Virus record (IMG/VR): IMGVR_UViG_3300033147_000423
Coordinates: 1 to 35,753 of that record
Strand: one strand, 5' to 3'
Length of the DNA stretch: 35,753 nucleotides
From: a virus
A program made the translations under genes and the position numbers. Positions 2 through 13,641 of the stretch are shown here, in pieces (position 1 is the stretch's first letter; the number at the start of each line of letters is the position of its first letter). Under the pieces are notes generated by a model. It saw only the letters and a list, made by a program, of their open reading frames with translations. It was not told the origin of the DNA and made no database searches.

Positions 2-1549
2 TCTGAGACCATAATAGAAACCGCAGTTAACATCACTAAAAAAGAACGTGATGAGGCTTATAGGGATTACCCTGGGCCTACTGATTTTGTCCACCTCCAT
101 AACCACACATTGTTTAGCCCTCTAGATGGAATCGCTACTCCAGATCAGTATTTTTCGGCATGTGCTGAACTTGGCAATCCGGCATTTAGTATTACAGACC
201 ATGGTAGTTTAGCTAATATTCCTGACGCTTATTGGTCGGCCCAAAAACATGGGGTTAAGTTTATCCCAGGTTGTGAAATTTATTATTCTCCTGATCATCC
301 AGAATTTAAAAGGCTGCAAAAAGACCCTGAATTTAAATTGACTGCGTTAAGACCTGATTACGGAAAATCCGAGTTTACTGTTGAAGACTTGGATACTGAG
401 GAGCGATATTCGGATTTTAGACGTCAAAGGCATCTTACAGTGTTGGCAATGAACATGGTTGGATACCGTAATCTTATTCAAATGACTACTGAAGCTTGGG
501 ATGATGGATTTTATTATAAGCCAAGGATTTGGTTTGATAAGATCAAGAAGTTTCATGAGGGTTTGATTATCTTATCAGGGTGTCTTAATGGGCCGGTTTC
601 CCATTATCTTAGGCGTGCGGAATTCTGGAAGGGCGTAGAGAAAAAGCAGATCCGCCAAATCGAGAGGCATATTAGAAAAGAGAAACGCATTATCGCTCTT
701 AGAATTTCTTCTAGCGCTGCAGCTATGCGTCGAAAGAAAAATCAAAAAATGGCAGTTGATGTCATTAAAAAATTTAGGGAATTACTCGGGGACCGATATT
801 ATCTTGAACTACAGATGCCCGGAGAAGAAATTCCATTTGGCAAGGGTGCTTTTAGGCAGACTGCCATGATTTCTGAGTCATTGGGAATTAGAGCAGTGTT
901 GAGTAATGATTGCCATTATTTATCTCGCAAAGATTTTAAAGTTCAAAAATGTATGATGGCAATTGATCAAGGGTTGTCGATTAACGATCCTAATTTATTT
1001 CATGTAAATTCGGATGAGCAATTTTTTAAAAGCCGAGCACAATTACGTAAGACTTTTATTGAGGGTGGTTATAATAAGTTTATCACACCTGCAAGATTTG
1101 AAGAGATTTGTGATAACACAGTGGCTTTATCTGAGCGTTGTTCTGGGTTTAAACCGGATCTCAGTCCGAAGTTACCTTTAGTCCCTGAAGCAGGTAAGAA
1201 GCTTCGAGACATTGTTTATCAAGCTTTAAAAGACAAAAGGTTATGGAGCAAGGAGGAAAAGTTTGTAATTGACGGGCGAGAAGTTACTTATAAACAGCAA
1301 GCTAATATTGAATTAGAGCGGTATATTGAAAAGGGGTTTGCATCTTATTTTCTTATCATTCGCGATTTGATTTCTCATTCTAAGAGCAGTGGCTGGGAGA
1401 TTGGTCCTGGTCGGGGCAGTGCTGGTGGATCTTTAGTTTGTTTTCTTGTAGGGATTCATTCAATTGATCCTTTGGCGTGGGGTCTTAGTTCAGTTCGGTT
1501 CATGGGTGATAGCCGTGGCGGGCGTTTATTAAACATCAAAATGGAGTAA
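2..1549 (+). CDS. dnaE: DNA polymerase III alpha (DnaE-type), N-terminal piece, 5' end outside window
   Basis: This is the N-terminal piece of a C-family replicative polymerase. The frame is open from base 2 with no ATG before the PHP motif, so the true start is upstream; a TTG at 110 lies inside the PHP motif and is not a start. The PHP domain opens with H-L-H-N-H (codons 31-35), then LDG, TDHG, GCE, an RHL histidine, SGC and ND.HY. By family comparison all nine metal ligands of an active PHP phosphoesterase are present, so metal-dependent 3'-5' proofreading is possible (inference). The piece continues into the polymerase module with GPGRGSAGGS (1403-1432), which contacts the incoming nucleotide in DnaE enzymes, and stops about 40 residues later, before the catalytic aspartates. 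Those are encoded by the gene starting at 2368. The stop lies 1 nt before the next ATG. Confidence 0.93.
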   Translation, partial: SETIIETAVNITKKERDEAYRDYPGPTDFVHLHNHTLFSPLDGIATPDQYFSACAELGNPAFSITDHGSLANIPDAYWSAQKHGVKFIPGCEIYYSPDHPEFKRLQKDPEFKLTALRPDYGKSEFTVEDLDTEERYSDFRRQRHLTVLAMNMVGYRNLIQMTTEAWDDGFYYKPRIWFDKIKKFHEGLIILSGCLNGPVSHYLRRAEFWKGVEKKQIRQIERHIRKEKRIIALRISSSAAAMRRKKNQKMAVDVIKKFRELLGDRYYLELQMPGEEIPFGKGAFRQTAMISESLGIRAVLSNDCHYLSRKDFKVQKCMMAIDQGLSINDPNLFHVNSDEQFFKSRAQLRKTFIEGGYNKFITPARFEEICDNTVALSERCSGFKPDLSPKLPLVPEAGKKLRDIVYQALKDKRLWSKEEKFVIDGREVTYKQQANIELERYIEKGFASYFLIIRDLISHSKSSGWEIGPGRGSAGGSLVCFLVGIHSIDPLAWGLSSVRFMGDSRGGRLLNIKME

Positions 1550-1550
1550 A

Positions 1551-1988
1551 ATGATTAAAGTTGAACATCTTGGGAAATTGGTAGAAGAGGCTTTTGGGTC
1601 TTATAAAATTTATTTAGAATTGTCGGGGGTTTTAACTGATCCGGGGGCTAAGTTGGCTTTATTAAAGTGGCCCGATATTGCTCAAATTGCTATTGAACAT
1701 ATTCAAGATCCTAGTGATGATAAATTAGATTTATTATATGCGGATTTGTGTATTGCTATCGTAGCTCCATTAGAGAAAATTTATGATTCAGTAGTTGAGC
1801 GTTTAGAACAGTTAACTGGTCAGAAACCCGCTGGTGTTGAGGAGATTAGCCATCTCATTATGAAACAATCTATTGTTAATCCAATTGATTTGAAATTTAG
1901 AATACTCTCAGAGTTAAATAAGATGTTTGTGACATTGCAGACCTTAACTGGTATTGAATATCCGTCACTTAAGGAAAGGGATTTATGA
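1551..1988 (+). CDS. Hypothetical protein between the two polymerase pieces
   Basis: A 145-residue protein that I do not recognise. It is acidic, mostly helical by composition, and has no cysteine cluster, signal peptide or membrane segment. It starts 1 nt after the stop of the polymerase N-piece and its own stop overlaps the next start (ATGA), so it is translated within the polymerase operon. Its place between two halves of one enzyme suggests a replisome-related or assembly role, but this rests on position only. No intein or homing-endonuclease motif is visible. Confidence 0.8.
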   Translation: MIKVEHLGKLVEEAFGSYKIYLELSGVLTDPGAKLALLKWPDIAQIAIEHIQDPSDDKLDLLYADLCIAIVAPLEKIYDSVVERLEQLTGQKPAGVEEISHLIMKQSIVNPIDLKFRILSELNKMFVTLQTLTGIEYPSLKERDL

Positions 1989-2362
1989 GAGCTTTAGTAG
2001 TTGGGTATGCGCCTGTAGGAAAACCTGCTTCGTTTGCTGTTGATATTGGCGGGGAGCATAAACGAGTTGTTCCTCTTAAAACGAAGTCTAAGTATCAAGC
2101 AGAGTTAGCTGGTATTAAGTATGTCTGTCAGGCCATCATAAATACAGATGTTGATCTTAATTTGAAGGTAACAATTAGCCATCTTCCTACAATTTTTGTT
2201 AAGGATAAAGATGGTAGTTTTAAAAAACGCAAGAAGAAAAACAAATTGGTTGATGAAGTACGTGAACTTAGTACTAAATTTTCTTCTTTTGTGTGTGAAA
2301 CTAATAAAGATACAGAGTCGGTTAATGTTTTAAAAGCGAAAGCAAAATCAGCTAGTATTTAA
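1985..2362 (+). CDS. Small basic hypothetical protein, possibly RNase H-like fold
   Basis: A 125-residue protein preceded by a good ribosome site (GGAAAGGG) and overlapping the previous stop by 4 nt. The N-terminal half (VVGYAP..FAVDIGG, then KYQAELAGIKYVCQAI) resembles the beta-strand/AEL-helix layout of RNase HI-like folds, but the full DEDD catalytic set is not evident, so this is only a hint. A lysine-rich stretch (KKRKKKNK) near residue 80 suggests nucleic-acid contact. The last codons (Ser-Ile-stop) lie inside the GTATTTAA box that precedes the next gene. Confidence 0.75.
   Translation: MRALVVGYAPVGKPASFAVDIGGEHKRVVPLKTKSKYQAELAGIKYVCQAIINTDVDLNLKVTISHLPTIFVKDKDGSFKKRKKKNKLVDEVRELSTKFSSFVCETNKDTESVNVLKAKAKSASI
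2355..2362 (+). promoter_or_regulatory. GTATTTAA box, 5 nt before start codon of polymerase C-piece
   Basis: GTATTTAA ends exactly 5 nt before the ATG at 2368, and no Shine-Dalgarno is visible. The same 8-mer (GTATTTRA) at the same spacing precedes four other genes in this window. The spacing fits a -10-like or T4-late-like promoter box whose +1 would fall on the start codon (inference). Confidence 0.45.
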
Positions 2363-2367
2363 ATCGC

Positions 2368-4851
2368 ATGGTAGTTGAGAGTTGGTCTGATTTAGCTAGA
2401 AAATCTATCCTTAATTGCGCTAAACAGAAGTTAGGGCAAGAATACAAGGATCGTCTCAAATTCGAGATTAAAGAGATTACTAAACAAGGTGCTAACAATT
2501 ATTGGGTCAGGCTCTATAATACGGGGGCAACCTTTGATCACAATAAGAATGGTTTGGTTTTCCCTTATTTGTTAGGGATTACTAATGTTGATCCTATTAA
2601 ATCTGGAAATAACCATATTATTCGATTCGATCCGGAATTTCCTGATATTGATATTGATTTGCTTCCTATTTCTAGGGATCCGATTAAAGAATACGCTGAA
2701 AAAACCTATGGATCTGAATATGTCTGCAATGTCGGTTTATGGTTAACTTATAAAGCTAGATTAGCGATTCAGGATGCAGCAACGGTTTTGGGGCATAACA
2801 GACATGAAGCTATCGCTATGTCGAAAGAACTCCCGACCGAGTTTGATGATATGTCTTATAATCAGGCTTATGAAGAGTTTAAAGAGTTTAAGAAATACGC
2901 CGATGAATTCCCGGAAGTTGTCGAATTAGCCTATCAAATGAAGGGGAAGATTAAATCCCAGGGCAAACACGCTGGTGGGTTGATTATTTCGTCAGTTCCA
3001 ATTCGTGATTTTGTTCCGCTTACTTTTATCGGTGCCAAAAACAACAAACAGTGGACGTCAGCTTGGACCGAGGGTATGGCAGCTTCTCAATTGTCCAAAT
3101 TTGGGCTGGTAAAATTTGATTTATTAGGGCTTTTAAATTTAGCTTATATTTATGATTGTAAGAATCTAATTAAAAAGACTAGAGGAATTGAAATTAACTT
3201 CGATGATATTCACCCAGGTGAGGATAAAGCTGGATGGATGGCCCAATCTAATGGAAAGAAAAAGAAGATTAAACTCAATGATCCTAAGGCTCTTAAGAAC
3301 GCCAATGACGTCAAATTAGAGTCTATTTTCCAATTTGACACTGATCTTCAGAAGAGCATCCTCGAAAAGGGTGGTGTTAAGTCTTTCATGGATCTTGTGA
3401 TTTATAATAGTTTAGGGCGTCCTGGGCCTTTGCCCATGGTTGATATCTATATTGGGAATCGGGATGGTAAGAATAAATGGAAAAGTAAACTTCATCCTAA
3501 AATGCTTGATATTCTTCAAGAAACCGAAGGTGTACTTTGCTTTCAAGAGCAGTTGTTACGCATATGGGTTGAAGTTTGCGGTTTCACAATGCCCGAAGCT
3601 GAGGCTGCGCAGAAAGCAGTTAAGAAGAAGAGGATTGAGATTCTGGACGAAATTGGGCCACGAGTTATTGAGGGAGCGGCAGTTCTGATTGGACACAAAA
3701 GCGCTCAAGAATTGTGGAATACCATGGTGTCTTTTGGTCGATACTGTTTTAATAAATCGCATGCGGTGGGTTATACTTTAATTGCTTATCGGTGTTTGTG
3801 GCTTAAGACTCACTTTCCTGCTGAATGGTGGGCAGCGGTTCTGTCTAAATGTCCGAACCACAAGACTCTTCAATTTATGGGCGCAGCTCGTTCGGAGGGG
3901 ATCGATTTTGGTTCGATTAATGTTAACCATCCAACAGCTGAATTTTCGGTTGAAGATGGCCGAGTCATCCCAGGTATTTTGAGTGTTAAAGGAATTGGGA
4001 AGAAATTTGGTCGAGCATTGGTCAAGGAAGTGGAAAATGGCAAATTTGCTGATCTAGATGAATTTGTCGAACGGATTGGTAAAGACAAAACCGCTATTGA
4101 AAGATTGATTAAGCTTGGCGGTTTTGATTCTTTTTATCCTAATCGAAAAGCATTGTGGATGTGGTATTACTATAAAAATTGTAGTGGTTCGGATGTCACT
4201 AAAACGCGTCGTCTAATGAATTTCTGTTATACATGGAGCATTGATGAAATTAATGCCGAGCGCATTAGACAGGCTAATGAATACGAGAGAGCATATCCGA
4301 AACGCAAGAAGATCCCACAGAAAATTTCAAAATGGGAACCATCGACGGTTACTAGTACTCCGCGCAAGTTCAATGCAGAGTTGGAGTTAAACAAAATTCA
4401 AGTCAGGTTAACTAACAGGTTGGATCTAACGTTAGAGCAGGTTGCCCAAATGTTTCCTAAGGATTTCAAGTTATCTGAGATTTTGGATTTTGAGAAGGAA
4501 TACTTAGGGTATTATTGGCATTCTCCTGTGGACATGTTTATCCATGATGAAAATACTAAGATTGAAAATGCCAAGAAAACTGGCATTTTAGAATGTGTAA
4601 TTGAAGAAGTTCATAAACGAAAAGGAACACGAGGAGAGTATCTAATACTTAACGTGAATGATGGAATTAATACAGCTAGAGTCAACGTGTGGACTAGTGA
4701 ATTAGATACTAATGATGAAGAAATCTTTGAAGCTGGTGTCGGAATTAGAACGAATGTTCGCTGGCAAGAAAGATGGAGAAGTTTTAGTGTTAAAAGGCAC
4801 TCTTTGATTATGCCACTAATGGACAAGGAAGATGAATATGAGCCAGTATAG
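2368..4851 (+). CDS. dnaE: DNA polymerase III alpha (DnaE-type), C-terminal catalytic piece
   Basis: 827 residues with the catalytic palm, fingers, helix-hairpin-helix region and C-terminal OB fold of C-family polymerases. Visible motifs are PDIDID (D93, D95; the first two catalytic aspartates), GKHAGGLIIS, LVKFDLLGL (D251, third catalytic aspartate), RPGPL, FQEQLLR, FNKSHAVGYTLIAY, a GI.SVKGIGK HhH motif and an OB-type tail near residues 740-800. The first 90 residues are a second, degenerate copy of the module that ends the N-terminal piece: Y-RL-EI-- helix, then LVFPYLLGITNVDP. The GPGRGS loop is missing in this copy. A working active site therefore probably needs both polypeptides (inference). 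The start is set by the ATG 5 nt after a GTATTTAA box; there is no Shine-Dalgarno. Confidence 0.95.
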   Translation: MVVESWSDLARKSILNCAKQKLGQEYKDRLKFEIKEITKQGANNYWVRLYNTGATFDHNKNGLVFPYLLGITNVDPIKSGNNHIIRFDPEFPDIDIDLLPISRDPIKEYAEKTYGSEYVCNVGLWLTYKARLAIQDAATVLGHNRHEAIAMSKELPTEFDDMSYNQAYEEFKEFKKYADEFPEVVELAYQMKGKIKSQGKHAGGLIISSVPIRDFVPLTFIGAKNNKQWTSAWTEGMAASQLSKFGLVKFDLLGLLNLAYIYDCKNLIKKTRGIEINFDDIHPGEDKAGWMAQSNGKKKKIKLNDPKALKNANDVKLESIFQFDTDLQKSILEKGGVKSFMDLVIYNSLGRPGPLPMVDIYIGNRDGKNKWKSKLHPKMLDILQETEGVLCFQEQLLRIWVEVCGFTMPEAEAAQKAVKKKRIEILDEIGPRVIEGAAVLIGHKSAQELWNTMVSFGRYCFNKSHAVGYTLIAYRCLWLKTHFPAEWWAAVLSKCPNHKTLQFMGAARSEGIDFGSINVNHPTAEFSVEDGRVIPGILSVKGIGKKFGRALVKEVENGKFADLDEFVERIGKDKTAIERLIKLGGFDSFYPNRKALWMWYYYKNCSGSDVTKTRRLMNFCYTWSIDEINAERIRQANEYERAYPKRKKIPQKISKWEPSTVTSTPRKFNAELELNKIQVRLTNRLDLTLEQVAQMFPKDFKLSEILDFEKEYLGYYWHSPVDMFIHDENTKIENAKKTGILECVIEEVHKRKGTRGEYLILNVNDGINTARVNVWTSELDTNDEEIFEAGVGIRTNVRWQERWRSFSVKRHSLIMPLMDKEDEYEPV

Positions 4852-8629: not shown

Positions 8630-9049
8630 ATGCTTAGACAATTTGATGTTATTCAGATTATTACAACCCGTCGAATTAGGTATTTATCTGCCCCTGCGGG
8701 ATCGGCTTCCAGCCCCCAAGGAGATTGGAACGTAATTGGGATGATAGGGTCTGATGTGATAGCAGCAAAAAATGACACTATGGTAAGAATTCCGATTCAA
8801 GATACTCGAAAAGTGGGTAGCTATAATTTAGATGCTTTTCTAGAGCAGTTGTTTAATGCAGGATATCGCCAAGTGGATGAATACAACGTAACTGATAATG
8901 TTGCAAAAATGTTGGACATAGATATAATGGAAGCTCGTCAATTTTTAATTGACCATACTTTAAGAACAATAGTAAAATCAATTTCAGAACGCGATCAGAT
9001 TTTAAGAAAGGTATTGCAACTGTGGCAGAAACAAGCAAAAAAAACATAA
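8630..9049 (+). CDS. Hypothetical protein upstream of recA
   Basis: 139 residues starting at ATG 8630; longer in-frame readings to 8399 run antisense through the minus-strand gene and are rejected. The N-terminal half is beta-rich with a [17 protein letters not shown] stretch. The C-terminal half is helical ([23 protein letters not shown]), resembling a small helix-turn-helix region. No family recognised. The 3' end overlaps the recA start by 28 bases, so the two are translationally linked, which suggests a recombination or replication context. Confidence 0.72.
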
Positions 9050-10035
9050 TCGATTTATTGTTAGAACAACTAACTAAAAATCACGGGGAAGGAGCGGCCC
9101 GCCAAGGAGTTAGTGTAGTAAAAGTTCCCGTTATCTCCACCGGAGCCTTAACACTTGATCTCGCATTGGGCATCGGTGGGATTCCTAAAGGTCGGATTAC
9201 TGAAATTTTTGGTCCTGAATCTTCTGGTAAAACCACACTTTCTCTTCAAGTTGCAGCAAATGCTCAAAAAGCTGGCGGCATTGTAGCATTCGTTGATGTT
9301 GAACATGCTTTAGATCCTAGCTATGCCGCCCAAATTGGCGTAAATATGGATACTCTTATTATTAGTCAACCTGATACAGGAGAACAAGCATTAGATATTG
9401 TAGATACTCTAGTATCATCCGGAGCAATTGCTCTAGTCATTGTAGATTCAGTAGCTGCTTTGGTTCCTAAAGCAGAGCTTGAAGGCAATATGGGAGATCA
9501 CCATATTGGTGCCCAAGCACGATTATTGTCTCAAGGATTACGAAAACTAAAAGGATCAGTCAATAAATTCGGTACCGCCCTAATCTTCATTAATCAGCTG
9601 CGTGAAAAAATTGGAGTTATGTTTGGCAACCCCGAAGTTACCTCAGGTGGGCGAGCATTAAAATTTTACTCCTCTATTCGAATTGATATTAGACGTGTTG
9701 CCACTATTAAAAAAGAACAAGACGGTGGCGTTGGCAACCACGTAAGAACTAAAATTGTTAAAAACAAGCTTGCTCCACCATTTCGCCAAGCTGAGTTTGA
9801 TATTATCTTCGGCAAAGGAGTTAGTCGAGCTGGATGTATCCTTGACAAGGGTGTTGAAACTAAATTGATCGACAAAAGAGGTAGCCATTTTAGTTATAAC
9901 AACCTAAAATTAGGTAATGGTAGAAATAACGCCTGTGATATTCTTAACGCTAACCCTGATGTTATGCAAGAAATCGAAAACAAGGTTCTAGGCAATCATA
10001 TTGTATTCGAGGGAGAAGATACGAAAGAGGATTAA
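9022..10035 (+). CDS. recA: RecA recombinase (bacterial type)
   Basis: 337 residues, near the usual RecA core length. Walker A is GPESSGKT (64-71) and Walker B is [10 protein letters not shown] (138-147). The [12 protein letters not shown] stretch matches the L1 loop region, NQLREK and the [10 protein letters not shown] segment match the L2 region, and the C-terminal domain is short. RecA forms filaments on single-stranded DNA and carries out strand exchange; in a phage it would drive recombination-dependent replication and repair. The start is GTG with AAAGG about 10 nt upstream. T4-like phages use UvsX in this role, so a bacterial-type RecA beside gp32-like and RNase H-like genes is a mixed system. 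Confidence 0.97.
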
Positions 10036-12046: not shown

Positions 12047-12496
12047 ATGCGTTATTATTATAAATGCGACAAAAGGCGTGCTGAGTGTTGTAAAATTTCG
12101 GATTTGCCCGACCGATTTTTTAAAACTGGTTTGTTTGAACAAGCCGAAATAGTGGTTGAAAACCGGTTGACAGAACTGACTGAAGATGGTTTAATTGATG
12201 GTGACAGCTCTCCTCTTATATGGGCGGTAGAGCATAAAATGATGGAAAAACCTGAGGTCAAGTGTCCGATTTGTGAAAGTGGAGCGGCAGTCATCATTAA
12301 TAAAGCGCCAAACTGGTACTGGCGAGGCGATTGTTATGCCAACAAAGCAGATTGCCAAAAACAGATGAATATTCACAAATTGAAGACCAATGATCCTTAT
12401 GGGTATATGAGACAACCAGGAGAGGTCGACGATATGATCAATAAAATTAAACGCGGAAACAAATCAAAGCCTAAGCACTTCCATTCATCGAAGTGA
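12047..12496 (+). CDS. Cys-rich hypothetical protein between helicase and polymerase genes
   Basis: 149 residues. Cysteines occur at the N-terminus (CDKRRAECC) and in a central cluster (CPIC ... GDCYANKADC), suggesting zinc binding. AGAGG lies 5 nt before the ATG. The stop overlaps the GTG of the next gene. In some phages helicase loaders or primase-like zinc proteins sit here, but no such domain is recognisable. Confidence 0.75.
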   Translation: MRYYYKCDKRRAECCKISDLPDRFFKTGLFEQAEIVVENRLTELTEDGLIDGDSSPLIWAVEHKMMEKPEVKCPICESGAAVIINKAPNWYWRGDCYANKADCQKQMNIHKLKTNDPYGYMRQPGEVDDMINKIKRGNKSKPKHFHSSK

Positions 12497-13641
12497 TTCA
12501 TTTATATTGTTATTTTGATTATCATAAGGGGAAACACCGTCCCTTATACGCTTGCTCCTATGACGATAAGAGTCAAAAAGCTGATTTCTATCCGCTTTAC
12601 TTCCCGATGCAAGGGCTTCCACTCTCCATTGCTTACGAAAACGAACAGAAGATTAAAGCTTTGTTCGATGGTCCTCTGATTTTATCAGGATTTAAATCGT
12701 TTGTCGGCGCATTCAAACTTGACCCTCTCAAAGAATATCAAATTTACGATGCATCGTTACCTATCGAAGCTACACCTAGATTCTCAGACATAAAGAAAAC
12801 CCTCCTTAAGAAAATTGCAATGTTGATAAAACACAAACCTTCAGAATGGTCGAAGGTTTTAGTGAACGCACAACTTGTCTACAAGACTCTAGAAGATCGC
12901 GGATATTATCATGGTAACCACAAAAAGTACCCGATTTATGATTTCGCATATACCGGCAGATCCAAATGCATCAAAAACAACATTCAAGGGGCAACAGTTA
13001 ACGACGAGATTTATCACATTAACGATGAATTTGACATTTTTCTCCATTTTGATTGGGTAGCTGCTGACTTTCGAGCAGCAAGTCTAATTAGTGGAGACGA
13101 GAGTCTTGAAGAATCTTTTAAAACCTCAGATCCTTATACCCGCCTTGCTGAGGAATTAGGAGATCCTGAAATTACCAGAGAGCAATGTAAATTAGAATTA
13201 TTTAGAAGTTTTTATTCTATGAATCCCGATGCTGCACCATTAGAGTTATATCCTCAATTCTCTGAATGGATGAGGAATAGTATTACTAAAATTGAAAAAG
13301 ATGGTTATAGTCTTTCATTACTTGGTCGGAAGTTTCAGATGGGGGCTGAGAGGACAATCAAAAGCGCTTTTAATGCGCAAGTTCAAGGCACAGTAGCACA
13401 CGCGATGCAAAATGTTATTTGGCGGGTACACCAGAAATTCCCGGAAAACATCTTGACTGAGGTTCATGATTCGCTTATCCTTTGTGCTAAGCCCAAAGAT
13501 ACCCCCGAAATAATTAGAGGGGTTAGTGAAGTTATGCTACATCCTCTCAATGGTATTTCAAATGTTAATGCGAAATTTCCTATTAAGATTAGCCTGGGCA
13601 CTAAATGGAAAAAATGGAAACCCTATAAGGAGCTTAGGTGA
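12493..13641 (+). CDS. polA: Minimal family A DNA polymerase
   Basis: 382 residues with the complete set of family A motifs. Motif A is D187..D192.R194 followed by SGDE. Motif B is R229, K233, F237, Y241 at exact four-residue spacing. Motif C is VHDSL (H325, D326). TGR and IQG sit near 154-166 and NAQVQGT before motif C. The usual Glu of motif A (E710 in E. coli Pol I) is Asp here and the Gly after the motif B Tyr is Ser. There is room for only about 150 residues before the palm and no 3'-5' exonuclease motifs are visible, so it is far smaller than Klenow-type enzymes. The 5' nuclease is a separate gene (15566). With DnaE as replicase, this could serve gap filling or Okazaki maturation (inference). 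GTG start overlapping the previous stop. Confidence 0.88.
   Translation: MIHLYCYFDYHKGKHRPLYACSYDDKSQKADFYPLYFPMQGLPLSIAYENEQKIKALFDGPLILSGFKSFVGAFKLDPLKEYQIYDASLPIEATPRFSDIKKTLLKKIAMLIKHKPSEWSKVLVNAQLVYKTLEDRGYYHGNHKKYPIYDFAYTGRSKCIKNNIQGATVNDEIYHINDEFDIFLHFDWVAADFRAASLISGDESLEESFKTSDPYTRLAEELGDPEITREQCKLELFRSFYSMNPDAAPLELYPQFSEWMRNSITKIEKDGYSLSLLGRKFQMGAERTIKSAFNAQVQGTVAHAMQNVIWRVHQKFPENILTEVHDSLILCAKPKDTPEIIRGVSEVMLHPLNGISNVNAKFPIKISLGTKWKKWKPYKELR

Follow-up and report, generated by a model that had tools for sequence, protein, structure and literature searches.

Nearly all replicative DNA polymerases have a single catalytic chain, and cyanobacterial DnaE is a known kind of DnaE that is divided by a split intein. 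Here, we describe a family C (DnaE-type) polymerase which is spread over two genes in the window, i.e., the whole viral contig IMGVR_UViG_3300033147_000423 (35,753 bases, positions 1 to 35,753). The first gene, termed N-piece, occupies positions 2-1549 and the second, termed C-piece, positions 2368-4851. A literature search on two-chain phage Pol III returned a single precedent, the group 2.2 jumbo phages, whose minimal Pol III alpha consists of a nucleoside triphosphate (NTP)-binding N protein and a Mg2+- and template-binding C protein; together, the two are predicted to make up a single enzyme (Iyer et al., 2021; PMC7824862).

This split Pol III is the closest precedent for the window pair, and by residues both show the same partition into an NTP side and a Mg2+ side. 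However, the group 2.2 genes lie far apart, whereas the window pieces are separated by 818 bases within one four-gene cassette. The group 2.2 proteins represent a catalytic core devoid of other Pol III domains, while the window pieces are full-sized and include PHP, finger, HHH_6, and OB domains. Furthermore, the group 2.2 split is described without a duplicated module, in contrast to the window, where the two pieces overlap in a duplicated, degenerate palm half. Finally, the group 2.2 phages carry a family B polymerase, whereas the corresponding family (PF00136) was not matched in any of ten contigs related to the window, which may be fragments. The window split Pol III is thus a variant of an already described two-protein principle, new in its domain content, gene arrangement, and duplicated module.

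Other DnaE architectures differ in where the chain is interrupted. The single-chain enzymes of E. coli and of phage LR756511.1 (a 1183-amino-acid protein, L006) contain the same domains and active-site residues in sum, but comprise one polypeptide with one palm, as opposed to two polypeptides with one-and-a-half palms in the window. In actinophages, the alpha subunit is likewise encoded by two adjacent genes (genes 64/65 of Gordonia phage Madi, genes 57/58 of Microbacterium phage FreddieHg); however, the entire palm is encoded by their second gene, including RGSA and PDVDLD or PDIDLD on one chain, and it is the PHP domain that is split off, unlike in the window. The split-intein DnaE of three phage loci (L077-L079) is also interrupted within or close to the palm, and other genes separate the halves. 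These loci carry intein halves at the break, and L077 has no duplicated module, whereas the window shows neither an N-terminal intein half (IntN) after the N extein nor a C-terminal one (IntC) before the C extein.

The Palm Is Divided Between Two Chains and Partly Duplicated

All features of the cassette named here lie on the plus strand. The N-piece (515 amino acids) contains a PHP domain (PF02811, E 1.4e-37) N-terminal to the N-terminal palm half with the nucleotide-contacting loop, which matches positions 5-98 of PF07733 (E 7.5e-22) and thereby the first third of this family, which represents the Pol III alpha palm (Pfam). This module, termed N-palm, spans positions 1289-1546 and comprises the GPGRGS loop (1403-1420) as well as R499 (1496-1498) and R505 (1514-1516), which correspond to R390 and R396 in E. 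coli. GPGRGSAGGS is followed by GIHSIDPL..VRFMGDSRGGRLLNIKME and the stop, which falls eight residues past VRFMGDSRGG; the conserved tail reads SRGGxMLxVxM. The gene is located at the contig end, and its start codon is the sole loss (MSESVIETAVN in the relative L003 vs. SETIIETAVN in the window).

The C-piece (827 amino acids) consists of a degenerate palm copy, the catalytic palm, thumb, fingers, helix-hairpin-helix (HhH), and an OB-like domain, and matches positions 7-260 of PF07733 (E 4e-35, Pfam). Positions 7-98 of this family are therefore encoded twice in the window. The second copy of the N-terminal palm half, termed palm1', occupies positions 2368-2625 as supported by hhalign and a column check; the motifs follow in the order EYKDRLKFEI, NGLVFPYLLGITNVDPI, FPDIDID, and GRGS is missing. 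The PDIDID strand (2641-2658) carries the catalytic D93 and D95 (E. coli D401 and D403), and K249 and D251 (E. coli K553 and D555) are encoded at 3112-3120. An earlier note on this DNA had described both palm modules, the three aspartates, and two genes between the pieces, and the sequence agrees in each case, except that the N-piece loop had been misquoted as GPGRGSAAGS.

Comparison of sequence profiles built from 19 C-piece N-termini and 17 N-piece palms aligns palm1' with the N-palm at an hhalign probability of 95.5 (E 1.3e-8), which indicates that the overlap is more than chance and represents a homologous duplicate. A search of the palm1' profile against PDB sequences gave no match up to E 1. 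Compared with L003, dN (nonsynonymous divergence) is 0.15 for the N-palm and 0.17 for palm1', while dS (synonymous divergence) is saturated; because dN is low, within 0.14-0.17, at saturated dS, both copies are under purifying selection.

The two copies have retained different residues, numbered here after E. coli DnaE. R362, S364, R390, and R396, which we take to contact the nucleotide or the primer end, have equivalents in all 17 N-pieces and in none of the 19 C-pieces (column check). Conversely, all 19 C-pieces have the equivalents of D403, K553, and D555, and 17 have that of D401, whereas all four are missing from the N-pieces; in the two remaining C-pieces the frame is broken at the motif and D401 is carried just upstream. 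E. coli D401, D403, and D555 are known catalytic residues (PMC8485763). The window pair as a whole thus shows the DnaE-type hallmarks of a PHP domain, three catalytic aspartates, finger, and HhH, with the GRGS loop and the palm arginines on the N-piece alone. This reciprocal loss confirms that neither polypeptide combines the nucleotide loop with the catalytic aspartates, as had been proposed from the window alone. In the window and in its relatives, the palm is not contained in a single polypeptide; its halves are found on two open reading frames (ORFs).

Conservation Across a Lineage of Large Phages

Scans of viral contigs with both pieces identified the same split in at least 20 related contigs of up to 408 kb, at 36-81% identity (44-79% for the N-piece relatives). 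Their N-pieces stop 40-50 residues past the GRGS loop, mostly with SRGGxMLxVxM, their C-pieces open with the GRGS-less copy, and the gene order N-X-Y-C, where X and Y denote the two intervening genes, is kept in nearly all of them. The 22 split C-pieces in a catalytic-core tree are all found on one side of a branch supported at 100/100, and the nearest sequence outside is the intact polymerase of phage LR756511.1. The identities of N- and C-pieces correlate over 17 genomes (Spearman 0.64, reached in 0 of 2000 permutations). The split polymerase belongs to a lineage of large, uncultured phages. Among GenBank phages, the C-piece query returned 1272 records (all below 60% identity, the best-ranked at 28%) and the N-piece query 1197 (all below 60%). 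Across 84,980 prokaryote genomes, a pattern-based scan yielded no member of the split family, only two distant polymerases at 26% identity.

Structure Prediction

In L003, the N and C genes share a frame, which allowed the N-palm, the intervening bases, and the C-piece to be read as one chain with stops replaced by glycine. This read-through chain was folded by AlphaFold2 with an alignment of split-family sequences alone (A9). Predicted local distance difference test (pLDDT) values are 83-97 for the N-palm (residues 1-110), 73-96 for most C-piece blocks with a lowest value of 49, and mostly 20-37 for the nonsense linker. With VIA-align, the superposition of the model on Pol III begins at model residue 1: on E. 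coli 5fku 278-1026 (Z 30.6, 558 residues, 3.6 Å), on the Mycobacterium tuberculosis structure 5lew from residue 306 (Z 37.1, 595 residues, 7.3 Å), and on the Taq enzyme from residue 295.

The window's C-piece folded alone with a comparable alignment (A11) served as control. Here, every Pol III (DnaE) alignment begins at model residues 86-102, corresponding to E. coli 396-410 (5fku: Z 22.5, 452 residues, 4.3 Å). As these alignments start at the catalytic strand, palm1' leaves the palm position of this model empty even without a competitor. In addition, pLDDT around the DID strand drops from about 76-79 with the N-palm to 49-56 for the C-piece alone, and around residues 201-250 from 58-81 to 42-65. 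The catalytic core of the C-piece alone is thus modeled with low confidence, at pLDDT 42-66. In the models, the palm is completed by the N-palm and not by palm1'. Since the N-palm fills the palm position that the C-piece alone leaves empty, an active site formed across the chains is the best reading.

A Predicted Two-Chain Polymerase and Its Alternatives

Taken together, the products of the two genes probably form an obligate heterodimer that acts as a DnaE-type alpha subunit, with a predicted active site across the chain boundary. The N chain would supply the PHP domain and the palm half holding the incoming deoxynucleoside triphosphate through the GRGS loop and the R390/R396-equivalent arginines, and the C chain would supply the catalytic aspartates, thumb, fingers, HhH, and OB domains. 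Docking of the N-palm on the catalytic strands of the C chain, a computed result, would complete the nucleotidyltransferase fold, and by their residue content neither chain should be able to copy DNA alone. The earlier note had offered two options, an active site between the chains or one structural palm copy. The former is supported by the conservation of the split within one clade and by the joint model; the latter also fits, as palm1' would no longer be part of the palm and is probably a structural or docking element. It is possible, yet rather doubtful, that palm1' acts in an obligate-heterodimer replicative polymerase as a docking or gating element which is engaged or displaced by the N-palm, with chain assembly turning the enzyme on. 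Regarding its origin, a polymerase gene may have been partly duplicated, or a second copy acquired, after which the PHP domain and the GRGS half would have persisted in one copy, while the other would have kept the catalytic half as its GRGS half shrank. We infer that the overlap arose by such a duplication or second gene copy followed by reciprocal loss, and we likewise infer that the split enzyme is an active polymerase and takes part in genome replication; it is probably, but not certainly, the replicase.

Several observations weigh against this interpretation. The window's own two palm copies match weakly in pairwise comparison (20.6% identity, E 0.22). The joint model treats both pieces as a single artificial chain, whose linker comprises about 300 nonsense residues, and comes without an interface error estimate, and AlphaFold2 has seen Pol III structures. 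Moreover, a family A-like polymerase gene (12493-13641) coexists with the split pieces, which bears on their replicative role.

The last point leads to the view that the pieces are remnants of a decaying polymerase and that the family A-like gene replicates the genome. A family A-like gene of about 380-450 amino acids is present in nine of ten relatives as well as in the window. However, the split pieces have conserved all catalytic residues at 36-81% protein identity with low dN at saturated dS, the conserved four-gene order also counts against decay, and the family A-like protein of the window (382 amino acids) keeps the motif A aspartate but lacks the usual glutamate of motif C (EVHDS, with HDS instead of HDE); decay is therefore considered highly improbable. 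An assembly or sequencing artifact has nothing more in its favor than the metagenomic origin of the window and its open 5' end, and it is refuted by independent contigs at 36-81% identity which share both termini and the intervening genes, leaving it a negligible probability.

Two further explanations concern the role of the individual chains. The C chain could be self-sufficient, with palm1' as a new nucleotide-binding solution and the N chain as a separate PHP nuclease or regulator. Palm1' is indeed joined to the catalytic strands, homologous to the palm half, and under purifying selection, but it has lost all four nucleotide-side residues in every member while the N-pieces keep them without exception, and in the C-alone model it lies outside the palm position and the core is of low confidence there; a lone C chain is thus unlikely. 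Alternatively, the chains might be joined after translation by protein trans-splicing through a split intein, making their separation purely genetic. In other phages, DnaE is indeed interrupted at this palm site by split inteins (FLNPHR|C... and ...THN|SGAPDIDSD in L077-L079; a Hint-like tail in L127), and the N-piece ends in SRGGxMLxVxM, which is similar to the first strand of the Hint-like element in some relatives. Yet the window C-piece has no intein half and passes from palm1' straight into PDIDID, the N-piece tail lacks the block A Cys/Ser motif after SRGG, the Hint-like ORFs of the relatives match no Pfam intein or Hint family even at E 5, and ligation would yield a protein with two palm halves. 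Trans-splicing is accordingly given a very low likelihood, and the obligate heterodimer remains the preferred reading.

Inteins and Frame Breaks at the Palm Site

The break site is a hot spot. The phages carrying L077, L078, and L079 are unrelated to the window, and a split intein (C...LVKT / THN|S) interrupts their DnaE at this same palm position. In L127:4576-6360, likewise from an unrelated phage, the DnaE break carries a Hint-like tail, and methylase-like and HNH-like ORFs come after it. An intein-related origin of the split is possible; the window itself contains no working intein parts. Five members of the split family carry a Hint-like element at the equivalent place in the C-piece. The ORF pieces involved were considered as inteins and rejected, their likeness being by eye alone.

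Five relatives have a C-piece whose frame is interrupted precisely at the catalytic motif PDI|DID (L005:5306, L022:8838, L093:5491, L101:6372, and L102:1658), either by a stop codon with a shift of 2-7 bases or by an in-frame TGA. The downstream frame of about 700 amino acids has no clear ATG, GTG, or TTG start that would include the motif, and the codon preceding the stop is often repeated at the resumption point (ATA/ATA, GAC/GAC). The Hint-like element occurs in all five broken C-pieces and in none of the unbroken ones. Ribosome hopping or frameshifting, a non-AUG restart, and a nuclease scar are candidate explanations. No downstream RNA structure beyond that of shuffled sequences was detected at these frame breaks, and a group I or II intron between the polymerase parts was dismissed after a search of five relatives gave no Rfam match at the gathering score. 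In L101 (5375-6290) and L102 (660-1600), a nuclease-like ORF on the minus strand (DUF7487, a weak TnsA-like match, helix-turn-helix) lies between the halves of the Hint-like element and opposite to them, a layout resembling "fractured genes" with a free-standing homing endonuclease.

Inteins are also present in N-pieces of relatives, namely in L005:910-2856 (133 amino acids, at TND|CHY in the PHP domain) and at GRG|S in L095:779-2731 and L096:1459-3537. Additionally, the C-pieces of L013 and L015 contain insertions of about 380-400 amino acids near FN|KSH.

Further Domains, Neighboring Genes, and Other Polymerases

The PHP domain of the N-piece (92-814, Pfam) has metal-ligand positions H31, H33, D66, H67, E92, H144, C194, D303, and H305. 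Because all nine are kept in 17 N-pieces, with D or E at position 66 (column check), PHP-domain proofreading by the N-piece may be possible. In the C-piece, the finger domain PF17657 (3136-3678, E 8.5e-31) and the HhH domain HHH_6 (PF14579; 3898-4155, E 2.5e-16) were assigned by Pfam, and the C-terminal OB-fold domain (4543-4833) by VIA-align matches to OB folds at model residues 726-822. Genes X (1551-1988, 145 amino acids) and Y (1985-2362, 125 amino acids) belong to no known family and are possible accessory subunits of the split polymerase. By eye, gene Y recalls an RNase HI-like fold without catalytic residues, a likeness that is unconfirmed.

The earlier note had regarded a third, full-length polymerase in the genome as incompatible with its proposal. 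In nine of ten related contigs, PF07733 matches are restricted to the two split pieces, whereas the remaining one (G006) has an extra polymerase gene (L097, G006:C1:1-6000, minus strand) which lacks a PHP domain and encodes RGSA and PDIDID on one chain of 588 amino acids. The gene is close to the contig end and could be an assembly join. In relatives, the short family A-like gene keeps its place about 11-13 kb downstream of the split Pol III. Further products encoded by the window are RecA, a DnaB-like helicase, a 5'-3' exonuclease, and a gp32-like single-stranded DNA-binding protein. RecA (9022-10035) is of a close bacterial type (PF00154 and RecA_C) and lies in the phage replication cluster.

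Implications

Throughout this phage lineage, nucleotide-holding and catalytic residues are kept on different proteins. The reciprocal decay of a duplicated palm half shows a route by which a one-chain replicase may have become a two-chain replicase. As a natural split polymerase, the system lets one ask how two chains build a palm active site and whether their assembly regulates replication.

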